From positions 4,464,001 through 4,528,000 of the forward strand of contig CM073194.1 of assembly GCA_037042915.1 (NCBI GenBank): a DNA stretch of 64,000 bases. The letters are read 5' to 3'. A model generated the notes under the pieces. It worked only from the letters and a program-made list of their open reading frames with translations. It did no database searches and was not told where the DNA came from. The first letter of the stretch is position 1, and the number at the start of each line of letters is the position of its first letter. The DNA comes from Auricularia sp. M13. Its lineage: Eukaryota; Basidiomycota; Agaricomycetes; Auriculariales; Auriculariaceae. Of the stretch, positions 2,676 to 36,455 are shown in pieces. Made by a program: the position numbers and the translations under genes.

Positions 2676-3573
2676 ATGGGTTTCAGGCGCGTGCGCCGGC
2701 GCGGCCAAACAGATGATGCCTCCCGCCACCTCGCAAGACCCTCCAGCAGGCTGTATTACGCCCTTCTCTTCGCCCTGATTCGTTCCTTACAACTTCTGGT
2801 CGCCCACGTACGTGTTCCGCTGCACCTGATAGCTTGTGCTTTGTTATGTAGAACCGTGCATGGGCTAGGGATCTTGTCATCGGTGCCGGGGCCGTCATTC
2901 TCGACGCGAGCAAGCGCAAGGTGCTCGTGCTGTGGGATCCCGTGACTAGCCGATACCGTTTCCCGTGGGCTAAGCATGATAAGGACGACCTTGGGCAGTT
3001 CGTGGTTTCGCCTTTTGAGCAGATTGCAGACGAGGTCGGTTCACGCTCCTTCTTGCACATCATGTCATCCTGCTCGGAGTCTCGTTGCTAAAAAAATTGC
3101 GTACTGTGTATGGTCTTTCTCTATCGCAGACAGGCTACACCCTCGAGAAGCTAGCTCTGCCCAAGCTCTCACGGCGGTACGCGAACCCGGACGCGCGTGA
3201 CTGGGAGGACCTGCAGGTGGAGGTGTGCATTGACCCTGCGCCGGAAAGCGCAACAGACGACCCCTTCTTCATGACCTTCGACGTTTTCTGGTTCCGCGGC
3301 GTCCCCGAGTACAAGCGGTTCGACAGCAGGCAGCGCATGCTCATGTGGTTCGCGTGCCGCGTGGTAGATGGGGCGCCCGCCCACGAGAATGTGGTGTGGA
3401 TGGGTTTTGAGGAGGCGGCGACTTGGCTTGCGATTGGCCGTCACAGTGGCGACTCGATGGAGCAGTCTGACTCGGACTCGGACTCGGAGAGGCACGTCGA
3501 CAACGGCTCGTGCGCTGCGCTCAAGCAGCTCGTGGCGATATTGGAGAATCCAGGGACGCAGCTTGCTGCATGA
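2676..3573 (+). CDS. Degenerate NUDIX-fold protein, paralogue A
   Basis: Three exons (2676-2807, 2852-3034, 3130-3573) add to 759 nt, predicting 252 residues; both introns have GT..AG ends. The NUDIX fold shows as the strand VIGAGAVILD followed by KVLVLWDP and, across intron 2, ADETGYTLEKL, the position of the NUDIX helix. The catalytic motif GX5EX7REUXEEXGU is poorly kept: the R-E pair is replaced by E-Q and the glycine is missing. Pyrophosphatase activity is therefore doubtful. The C-terminus has an SDSDSDSE acidic run near 3470-3490. It is convergent with paralogue B and related to C and D at 35.7-37.4 kb. The first exon is the weakest part of the model. Confidence 0.7.
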
Positions 3574-3834: not shown

Positions 3835-4958
3835 CTAATCCTTTGATGGGCGAAGGTCTTTAGTGGCCTTCCATAGTACGTCAAAAAGGAGCAGCGCGGG
3901 CTCAGCGACGTAGTCCTCATCCGTCAGTGTCACAAGCGCGTCTTCCAAAGGCATAAAACTGAATCGGTAATCCTTCCGAATCGGCTTGTCGTGTGTGACC
4001 TGGTCTCCTCGCACAATGCCGCTGTACCAGTTGATGAACGACTGCCGACCATCCAGCTGCTGACCCGGAGGGCGTTGGTGGTTCTGAAACCAAGCCACGT
4101 CGAGTGCGACCAAAAAGGGGCTCGTACTGTAAAGCTAATAATTATTACCGCGTCACGCGTCACGGAGGCCTCATGGCCCGGTAATAAATGCGTTTTGTAG
4201 CATGTCACGGGCCCCTCATGGTAATAGAGTGTCACGGTGCTCGAATACTGAATTTCTCACCGGTGCCCGTCCGGAGCGGCGCGCCTTCGGCGCGCATATT
4301 GTACAAGTTATATAACAGCAAAATCTCACAGAATCTCTGCAGAAACACAGTGTTCGGCATCCTGGTGGTCGATGTATTGCACAGATAAAGTGTTGAAGGG
4401 CCTGAGGGGGCCCCAGAAACAACCTTGAAATGAGATGACTGTATCAAATACTCTTTCTCACTGTCCAGTTGTGCCTTGTTCTGCTGAGAAGCACTGATTG
4501 AGCCAAAATTTCTCTTGTATGTCTGGCAACGTCACGTGTCACAGGCTCCGACATGTCACGGTCCAACGTCCATGGTAATAATTATTAGCTCTACAGTAGT
4601 GGTGGTGCTTTCACAGCATAGTTGCGGTTCGAGGTCTCGCCATTCTTTGACGTCCAATTTTTGATACTGCTTGAACGGCTTGACGAGAGGGAGACGTTCG
4701 ACGACCAATCCGGTCTGAGTTGATGGTGAAACGAGACTCGGCGACAAAACGAGACACCGACACGCTGACCTGGTCGTGGACGAATTGCAGAGGCGCCATG
4801 ATCAGCTTCTCCAGAGACTCCTCCTCGATGAAGCGGGGTAGCATGCTCGTCCCGAATTCAATATGTTCCAGGACAAGAACTTCGTCTAGTCTACCTGAGA
4901 GCGACGTCTTAACAGCGACCCCTCTTCCGGCGGTGCGGGCGGGGTCGCTGTATAGCGT
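3835..4958 (-). pseudogene. Degenerate NUDIX-fold protein, paralogue B, split by a MITE
   Basis: The exon from 4958 to 4770 reads GRGVAVKTSL..DEVLVLEHIEFG. A 55-bp intron (4715-4769) follows, then TGLVVERLPLVK.. to about 4597, where the 470-bp element at 4127-4596 interrupts the gene. Reading resumes at 4124 with SPFLVALDVAWF and ends at the stop at 3835. Removing the element and one TA copy leaves 597 nt without a stop (199 codons), and the join STTTT-SPF aligns with YTTT-GPF of paralogue C. With the insert in place translation stops inside it. A first exon should lie upstream of 4958 (an ATG at 5037 is possible) but is not resolved. The NUDIX catalytic glutamates are also missing here. Confidence 0.75.
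4127..4596. mobile_element. 470-bp Tc1/mariner-type MITE
   Basis: The ends are 23-bp inverted repeats with one mismatch: CTGTA(A/G)AGC followed by TAATAATTATTACC. The element is flanked by TA on both sides (4125-4126 and 4597-4598), the target duplication of the Tc1/mariner superfamily. It encodes no transposase. TGTCACG words lie inside both ends. It sits inside NUDIX-like paralogue B. Confidence 0.88.
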
Positions 4959-5628
4959 CTACTTCTAAATGGCCGAGCTTACTGATTGGTGCAGTTCCGA
5001 GGATCTTCCGCCTTATGACACGCGTGACGACACGCATCGTGATGCGGAACTGCGTTGTATACTCGAGCATCCATCGCTTTACCTGGTAGCCAGAACATTG
5101 TTTTCACTATAAGAGATATAGCACAGATGGACAGCTACGTTATGGCGCCAGAACACTTGCAAGTTGTACAGAATGGCAGCCCAATCTGGTTGAGGGTGTG
5201 CCTAAAGTTACAATACATGATAATACTCTTGTTCAATAACCCAAGATTTCTTTGAGAATTCCCGGTAGCAGCATATCTTTATTCTAACGATATGAGCTCC
5301 ATGTTGCATGTGTGGGAAGATGTGTAGAAAGCACAGTGCTCGGGCGCGGAACCAGGCTGAACGGCCCGGCCGGAGCGAGTCACTTTAGGGCCGGTCATGT
5401 TGACCAACCGATAAGCCCACCGCGTTAAAACAATGACTAAACTTCGTCCTTCTCGTTGATGATGACGGCGCCATTCTGATACGCAATGTCCCTAGAATCC
5501 AAGTTAGGATGCGAAGGAACATGAAATGTGTTCAGCATACGGGGCACAAAACGTCCTGTCATCCACATTTACACAAGTATATTCCGTTCGAATGACTCTG
5601 CGAGGAGTGTCGTGGCCCATGGAGATCA
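4959..5628. other. Intergenic, possible upstream exon of paralogue B only
   Basis: A minus-strand ATG at 5037 could begin the first exon of NUDIX-like paralogue B, but the intron left between it and 4958 would be unusually short. Nothing else recognisable is seen. Confidence 0.4.
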
Positions 5629-5636
5629 AATGGGAG

Positions 5637-6310
5637 TAAGGCTGAAACTAAATTAAATATAAGTACACCTCGCCGTACTTTATTTAGATTTAGTATGTAA
5701 TTAGTATTAATTAATTATAACTAGTTATATCTGAATCAAATCAAGTGCCATTGATGACAAGTTATACTCGGTGTATATAACTAATGACTACATCATACAT
5801 ACTTCTATAACTATACCTACTGATCATACAAGGTCCCTGAGGTGTTGGGATGCCTGCAATGTGAGGGTGAGGCAAGAAACCCCTTTGGGTGAGAGTATTA
5901 CCAAATTGGGAAGACAATCCAAGATGAAGCATGACTGATGACTGGGATACCATACCTGCTCCTCAGGTATATGATCGGTTAATAGGACTCCATATGGCTT
6001 GATACAGTATGCATTACAACCTCAGGATACTTCAGAAATTGACTCTGGCAACATATAAGGTACTTGGCAGTCTTGCATATCGTCAAGGACCTCCACTCCC
6101 ATGGCAGGAAGGTCTCTATAAATGTGGATCAGGTCTAGAACACCTCTCTCTAGATGCATCTCAGTTGATCTGAGCCCTCAGAAAGTTGACATGTAGATAC
6201 AATTAATTATATCTAATTACTCAAAAATACACGAGTTCGTACTTTAATTATATTTATATAGGCTGTTAATTAATTATACTTAGTAATTAATTAAATTAGT
6301 TGCAGCCTTA
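5637..6310. mobile_element. 674-bp hAT-type MITE
   Basis: The ends are imperfect inverted repeats starting TAAGGCTG(A/C)AACTAA. A perfect 8-bp direct duplication AATGGGAG flanks it at 5629-5636 and 6311-6318. Eight-bp duplications are the hallmark of hAT elements. The interior is AT-rich and non-coding, with TAATTAATTA-rich subterminal parts. The right end lies about 165 bp past the stop of the permease gene. Confidence 0.87.
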
Positions 6311-35671: not shown

Positions 35672-36455
35672 ATGCCTTTTGCCGCCACCATGTTACCAAA
35701 GTCCCAAACGACCACTGGAACACTCCTCTTTGACCCGCGTCTTCCGCCGATACACACCGATTATACGAGCGCCCACTTGGGTAACGCTGGATTTTGCGCT
35801 GCGTCAGTGATTTTTAGCACCCACCTTCTACAAGATGTTGACATCCATCACAGTGACCTGGTGCTCCAGTCCGGCGCTGTCATCGCCAATAGCAAGGGAG
35901 ACGTTCTCTTGCTTGAAGACCTTAGGACGGGGCGCATCGAACTTCCTCGCTCACAAATTCACTCGTCTCTAGAAAGCGTCTTTGACGAGCCGCTCCGTTT
36001 TGTGGAAGAAAAGGTCGACCCCAGCCATTCTTCGTATCGTAGAACGTAATCATCTTTTACAGGCTGGAATACTGGTCGAACGCCTTCCTCTCCTCAAGCA
36101 GAGGCGACGCTATCGGAATCCATTCGTCAAGGAGTATACTTTACTCGAACAGGAGCTCCTATTCGAGAATTATACTACAACTGGCCCATTTGCCATGGGG
36201 ATCGATGTCGTGTACGTCGAGCGGTCAGAGTTGCCAGACGGTCGACAATCGTTTACTTCCTGGTTCGCTGGGTTGGTGCGTGATCAGCCTCAGGGAATGG
36301 TGGAACGCAACGGTGCGCGCCTCCATTTCATGCCCGTGGAGAAAGCCAGGCAGACAGTCCAGGATCCGTACTGTGATCACCTCGCCGCACGGGTTCTGAT
36401 GCTATTTGAGGCGCTCTGGGAAACTACGCAGGCCTCCATGGTCGCACAACAATAA
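35672..36455 (+). CDS. Degenerate NUDIX-fold protein, paralogue C
   Basis: Two exons (35672-36013, 36063-36455) with a 49-bp intron give 735 nt, or 244 residues. It shares SGAVIANSKGDVLLLEDL, ELPRSQ, the intron position after FVEEK, AGILVERLPLLKQ, YTTTGPFAMGIDV and the C-terminal LMLFEALWETT with paralogues A, B and D. Where the NUDIX helix should be (REUXEEXGU) it has LRFVEEKAG, losing one catalytic glutamate and the arginine. A second short intron near 35782-35818 is possible but not needed. Divergent from the glycosyltransferase and in tandem with paralogue D 199 bp downstream. Confidence 0.7.

Follow-up and report, generated by a model that had tools for sequence, protein, structure and literature searches.

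A TA-flanked MITE and a second, unrelated transposon in a probable pseudogene of a fungal multigene family

Introners are in many cases non-autonomous and bear inverted ends and target duplications, and some of them leave 12 bp in the transcript, according to the part of PMC9860276 on which we draw. Pogo transposases follow DD30-35D patterns in the cited portion of PMC7325037, and excision of Stowaway and mariner elements mostly leaves a footprint, as stated in the section of PMC4561436 used here. Among the matches listed in a search of the open-licence literature, no paper title named the MITE family that concerns us. Its member at 4125-4598 lies in the window, by which we mean the whole 64-kb stretch of DNA analysed (bases 4464001-4528000 of contig C2, in a genome of 52.1 Mb in 14 contigs). 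A weak Pfam fungal kinase match beside the MITE copy L048 (E 0.0005, below the cut-off) and the short GT-AG introns are in keeping with a fungal source, probably one of the mushroom-forming basidiomycetes. We consider it very probable that the locus shows nothing more than a common type of MITE insertion, in a gene-family member that two transposons have disrupted and that would now be a redundant pseudogene.

The element and its ends are located as follows.
4125-4598, no strand: MITE of subfamily A, 474 bp with both TA copies, defined by its arms, its sister copies and the empty site in the paralogue L051.
4125-4149, plus strand: left terminal inverted repeat, with the TA target duplication at 4125-4126 (arm search, genome pattern, shuffles).
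4574-4598, minus strand: right terminal inverted repeat, with the TA target duplication at 4597-4598 (arm search, genome pattern, shuffles).

The arms are 25 nt long and complementary at 24 of 25 positions (96%); they consist of 23 nt plus the TA. Two MITE termini are present in the window, whereas 100 shuffled windows gave 0.00 on average, and among the listed frames the longest stop-to-stop frame lying wholly inside this copy is 99 amino acids. At the insertion, the window reads CACCAC-TA-element-TA-CGAGC, and the empty site in L051 is CCACTACGAG in the same frame. In the uninterrupted L051 sequence GCCACCACTACGAGTCC, one TA takes the place of TA-element-TA. The 23-bp inverted ends and the TA duplication reported in the initial annotation are both confirmed. 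The BLAST blocks of L051 against the window abut exactly at the insertion point. The gap-free join proposed across the site also held, as the flanking frames are compatible when compared with two paralogues (STTTT-SPF, NATTT-SPF, NYTTT-GPF). However, we could not reproduce the claimed absence of stops over 597 nt. The open stop-to-stop frame spanning the MITE site has 164 codons (67 + 1 + 96), or 492 nt, but exon 2 starts only after the first 29 of these codons (4801-4715). They fall on the predicted intron and on the last part of exon 1 and are therefore non-coding in that frame.

The host gene is on the minus strand. Its parts and its relatives in the window are listed below.
5440-5538, minus strand: host exon 1, first part (MLNTFHV...INEKDEV; ATG at 5538), from the L051 alignment and the frames.
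4770-4886, minus strand: host exon 1, second part (DEVLVLEHIE...FVHDQ), with 28 of 39 residues identical to L051.
4715-4769, minus strand: predicted GT-AG intron of 55 nt, at the same place as the paralogue intron (sequence, frames).
4597-4714, minus strand: host exon 2 before the MITE (TGLVVERL...CESTTT), from the L051 alignment and the frames.
3835-4124, minus strand: host exon 2 after the MITE (SPFLVALD...RPSKD), 61-63% identical to L051.
2864-3573, plus strand: neighbouring gene of the same family with two exons, from sequence comparison.
35855-36431, plus strand: paralogue C of the initial annotation (36066-36431), uninterrupted at the MITE site, with the TTTGPF motif, from alignment.

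L051 is the closest paralogue of the host gene (63%) and lies, uninterrupted, about 13 kb away. The first part of host exon 1 matches it at 86% in DNA over 72 nt and at 75% in protein over 24 residues, and the host stop codon (3835-3837) is found at the place corresponding to the L051 stop. Searching the genome with the downstream, C-terminal host piece gave 13 matches including itself. Every one is on contig C2, and the matched stretches have no internal stops; 11 of the other 12 align through the MITE site unbroken, and the alignment of the twelfth begins at the site. The family forms two clusters on C2 (1567682-1620958 and 4448258-4501397), often as neighbouring pairs. No Pfam family was found for the host gene pieces, the paralogue protein or the family members tested. 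In look, the gene is presumably Nudix-like; assignment as a Nudix hydrolase was rejected, as there is no Pfam family and the PDB gave only matches at E 0.19 and 0.87, neither of them Nudix. Upstream of the host gene, an AT-rich inverted repeat of 27 nt at 5697-6220 (81% complementary, 470 nt between the arms) is possibly another MITE.

The first exon of the host gene carries an insertion of its own, with the following features.
4888-5439, no strand: second transposon of 552 bp with ends TAGTC...GACTA, unrelated to the MITE, breaking the L051 alignment.
4879-4887, no strand: 9-bp target duplication AACTTCGTC, copy 1 (sequence).
5440-5448, no strand: 9-bp target duplication AACTTCGTC, copy 2 (sequence).

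L051 exon 1 aligns to 5511-5440 and picks up again at 4887, so that 552 bp intervene. This second insert, which may be a Mutator-like non-autonomous element, has 38 genome matches including itself, four others being near full length at 84-90%, and the TAGTC...GACTA ends together with the 9-bp duplication occur in all five full copies inspected, including the window copy. A small internal inverted pair, CAGCGACCCC/GGGGTCGCTG, is located at 4913-4950. Three of the four other full copies are close to each other, and the window copy is about 90% identical to these, so the age of the second insert cannot be derived. In the frame of the gene, the second transposon begins with a TAG codon, which comes right after DEV. 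Beyond these two inserts of different families no damage to the host gene was seen, and its start, 55-nt intron and stop are in order. The initial annotation suggested that other strains may carry an empty, functional allele. This suggestion is weakened by the TAG-bearing transposon in exon 1, since both inserts must be absent from such an allele; as read from its sequence, an allele lacking the MITE alone would still be broken by the second transposon. Reading beyond the first insert thus exposes a second one, and a frame restored around one insert does not show a working allele. We regard this correction as weightier than the original claim.

The copy number of the MITE, which had been proposed as a check, was addressed by a genome search with the MITE ends, which gave at least 37 paired copies in the 52-Mb genome. 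At up to three mismatches, 83 termini were found, 65 of them with none, and the reversed control pattern gave 0. The 37 paired elements measure 467-512 bp in 35 cases, with two longer ones (1878 bp and 4415 bp); TA is present at both ends in 36 of 37, although the search pattern itself includes TA. Two of the remaining nine termini bound a 12.2-kb stretch and two a 16.7-kb stretch, one is a third end in L018, and the rest are unpaired single termini (C13:20645, C2:34432, C3:4141516 and C1:1926976). When aligned, the 35 short copies fall into at least four groups with common ends, only 54-81% alike between groups. Subfamily A has nine further copies of 489-490 bp, at 90.6-93.5% BLAST identity. 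The two 490-bp MITE copies L024 (C2) and L034 (C7) are identical at unrelated sites, which shows that members of the subfamily transposed fairly recently.

Several less regular arrangements were also observed. Two MITE copies from different groups lie 232 bp apart at L023:1501-2692, and a nested or tandem MITE pair is found at L018:1465-2367. The 16.7-kb stretch (L016:1122 to L017:7804; C1:5557621-5574303) lies between MITE-like ends in inverted order, and the outer ~200 bp of both sides are 88% identical and TA-flanked; it may be either two truncated MITEs or a single large element with long ends. The 1878-bp member (L009:1028-2905) carries the ends of the MITE and, internally, a 190-bp direct repeat at 99%, and the two frames searched gave no Pfam match.

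The 4415-bp element (L010:1140-5554) is the candidate source. It has the MITE ends and matches the MITE terminally over 172 bp (78%) and 52 bp (85%), and its three open frames fuse into one predicted transposase frame once predicted introns are removed. The predicted transposase matches Pfam DDE_1 weakly, at E 0.2, below the cut-off, and a relative in the genome that is 44% identical to it matches DDE_1 at E 9.3e-11. For the 78-residue N-terminal piece of the transposase, a search concerning a CENP-B-type helix-turn-helix gave no match above the cut-off. Three candidate acidic residues of the transposase, chosen by eye, are separated by 139 and 41 residues. The 41-residue D2-D3 spacing is outside the DD30-35D range given in the cited portion of PMC7325037, and we therefore rejected the pogo label and call the transposase TA-targeting and DDE_1-related. 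The 12.2-kb stretch (L011:1074 to L012:3285; C7:3545073-3557284) is the 4.4-kb transposon again, enlarged internally by about 7.8 kb; it holds a second transposase copy, 92-93% identical to the first in its two longer protein pieces.

Other MITE copies lie in or beside recognisable genes: L004 at an F-box gene (F-box-like E 2.6e-6), L041 at a second F-box gene (E 2.7e-21) and L048 at a fungal-kinase-like gene (Pfam E 0.0005, below the cut-off), with L047 close to where a third F-box gene begins (E 2.2e-6). In these four copies a compatible frame is open on both flanks, one flank of L047 having just 27 codons. F-box and fungal-kinase-like families are large in mushrooms, which fits tolerance of MITE hits through redundancy. 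The longest open span, 822 codons at L040, is beside a Ty3-like integrase frame recognised by eye, and its two sides need not belong to one gene. A preference of the MITE for genes was rejected. The flank open-frame test showed no concentration in open frames, with a median of 117 codons for the 37 copies versus 150 for the controls (p 0.12; 1500 TA sites, all from the 64-kb window).

The initial annotation concluded from the intact flanks that the MITE insertion is recent. This does not follow, as the copy is the most diverged of its subfamily and intact flanks are not improbable. Compared with the ten-copy subfamily consensus, in which the identical pair L024/L034 was entered once, the MITE has 16 substitutions, the most of the ten, and a 16-bp deletion; the other nine copies have 2-14 substitutions each and one 1-bp deletion in total. 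This divergence is an upper bound on the time in place, as some changes may predate the move of the copy. Placing all MITE divergence after insertion, we simulated 3.4% neutral change, at which 205 codons stay intact with a probability of 0.41 with substitutions only and 0.26 with frameshifts included at a rate of 0.023 per substitution, derived from the 2 indels and 87 substitutions in the subfamily. With probabilities of 0.26-0.41, the lack of damage in the flanks is therefore evidence neither of a young insertion nor of later selection. Selection since the insertion was likewise set aside, the stop-free flanks being uninformative by the simulation. Pairwise dN/dS between the host gene and its paralogue is 0.27, which may reflect mostly pre-insertion history.

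A recent, polymorphic MITE insertion, with other isolates carrying an allele free of both inserts, thus seems to us unlikely. The perfect target duplications and undamaged coding pieces would fit it, as would the identical pair elsewhere in the subfamily, which indicates that the family has moved. However, this copy is the most substituted of the ten, undamaged flanks are not improbable even with all change after the insertion, and two separate inserts would both need to be missing. Were another isolate to have a clean empty site, ancestry would be a likelier reason for it than reversion, since excision usually leaves a footprint in the systems covered by the cited section of PMC4561436. Far less probable is an assembly artefact joining unrelated pieces. 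The region is known from one assembly, but the target duplications of the two inserts are exact and correspond to single-copy sites in the paralogue, and each insert comes from a multi-copy family with like duplications elsewhere; we regard the artefact as extremely improbable.

The ends of the MITE raise a different question, as they give GTARAG on the 5' side and a ATTATTAG-like acceptor on the 3' side. Splicing of the MITE from the mRNA as an intron, with donor and acceptor in its ends, would leave 12 nt and keep the frame. This 12-nt geometry occurs in all five copies checked in or beside genes, the residue is stop-free in three phases, and the frame downstream of the MITE opens LYSTSPFLVAL; an Aureococcus introner leaves 12 bp in transcripts, according to the cited part of PMC9860276. 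A loose YTNAY branch-point motif is found within the last 75 nt in four of the five copies, but these motifs lie about 50 nt upstream of the acceptor or at it, and a strict CTRAY-type branch point is present in one of five, adjoining the acceptor. In the same five copies, the outermost acceptor would leave 4 nt and break the frame. Nor is the geometry rare: among 20,000 random ends drawn, 4925 had GT and AG, and 2201 of these (45%, or 11% of all) contained a frame-keeping pair, with a GTARAG donor not required. Paralogue introns in the stretches examined are shorter than 85 nt compared with the 474-bp element, the copies are not enriched in open frames, the genome pattern search gave no inward-facing end pair closer than 467 bp, and the second insert would stop the frame anyway. 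We therefore judge splicing of the MITE to be quite improbable. The broader idea, that the MITE ends form a frame-neutral portable intron, acting in either orientation and any phase, adding four codons and hence introner-like, appears to us very improbable. If true, such an intron would let exons receive MITE copies while the gene is preserved, and a TA-targeting transposon would underlie an introner-like system of a basidiomycete-like fungus. If the copies at the F-box and kinase-like genes proved to be spliced, intron birth from a DNA transposon would become directly testable.

We thus favour an ordinary MITE insertion into a gene that was also hit by another transposon. The MITE would be a non-autonomous, TA-targeting DNA transposon of Tc1/mariner-pogo type, mobilised in trans by a transposase whose probable source is the 4.4-kb relatives with the same ends. 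It landed in exon 2 of a small gene that belongs to no known family and has at least a dozen relatives on the contig, and the unrelated element with the 9-bp target duplication landed in exon 1. Both would add foreign sequence to the message, and the second would bring an immediate stop. Both insertions, their target duplications, the empty sites in L051, the repeat families and the candidate source element can be read from the DNA itself. The host copy is most likely a pseudogene, and we infer that its function was lost and, as paralogues are present, that this loss was tolerated. The coding pieces free of stops and frameshifts, together with the kept intron signals, would equally be expected of a gene that is still used. 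As we read it, the locus illustrates cleanly how small transposons can remove members of expanded fungal gene families, with a MITE family and its candidate source element in the same genome.

Compared with known systems, the MITE family resembles Tc1/mariner-pogo (Stowaway-like) MITEs in its size of ~470-510 bp, inverted ends, TA duplication and many copies, and in sharing ends with a larger transposase-bearing element. Unlike in pogo, the D2-D3 spacing of the transposase, picked by eye, is 41 residues instead of the DD30-35D given in the cited portion of PMC7325037. With introners, as described in the cited part of PMC9860276, the MITE shares inverted ends, a target duplication and non-autonomy; unlike introners, its copies have no open-frame bias and miss a strict branch-point consensus at the usual spacing. 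The second insert differs from Mutator-like non-autonomous elements in its inverted ends of only 5 bp, and resembles them in the 9-bp target duplication of all five copies inspected. Likened by description and not by sequence, the family also resembles the MITEs of Laccaria bicolor, basidiomycete MITEs in gene-rich regions according to the cited portion of PMC3411680.
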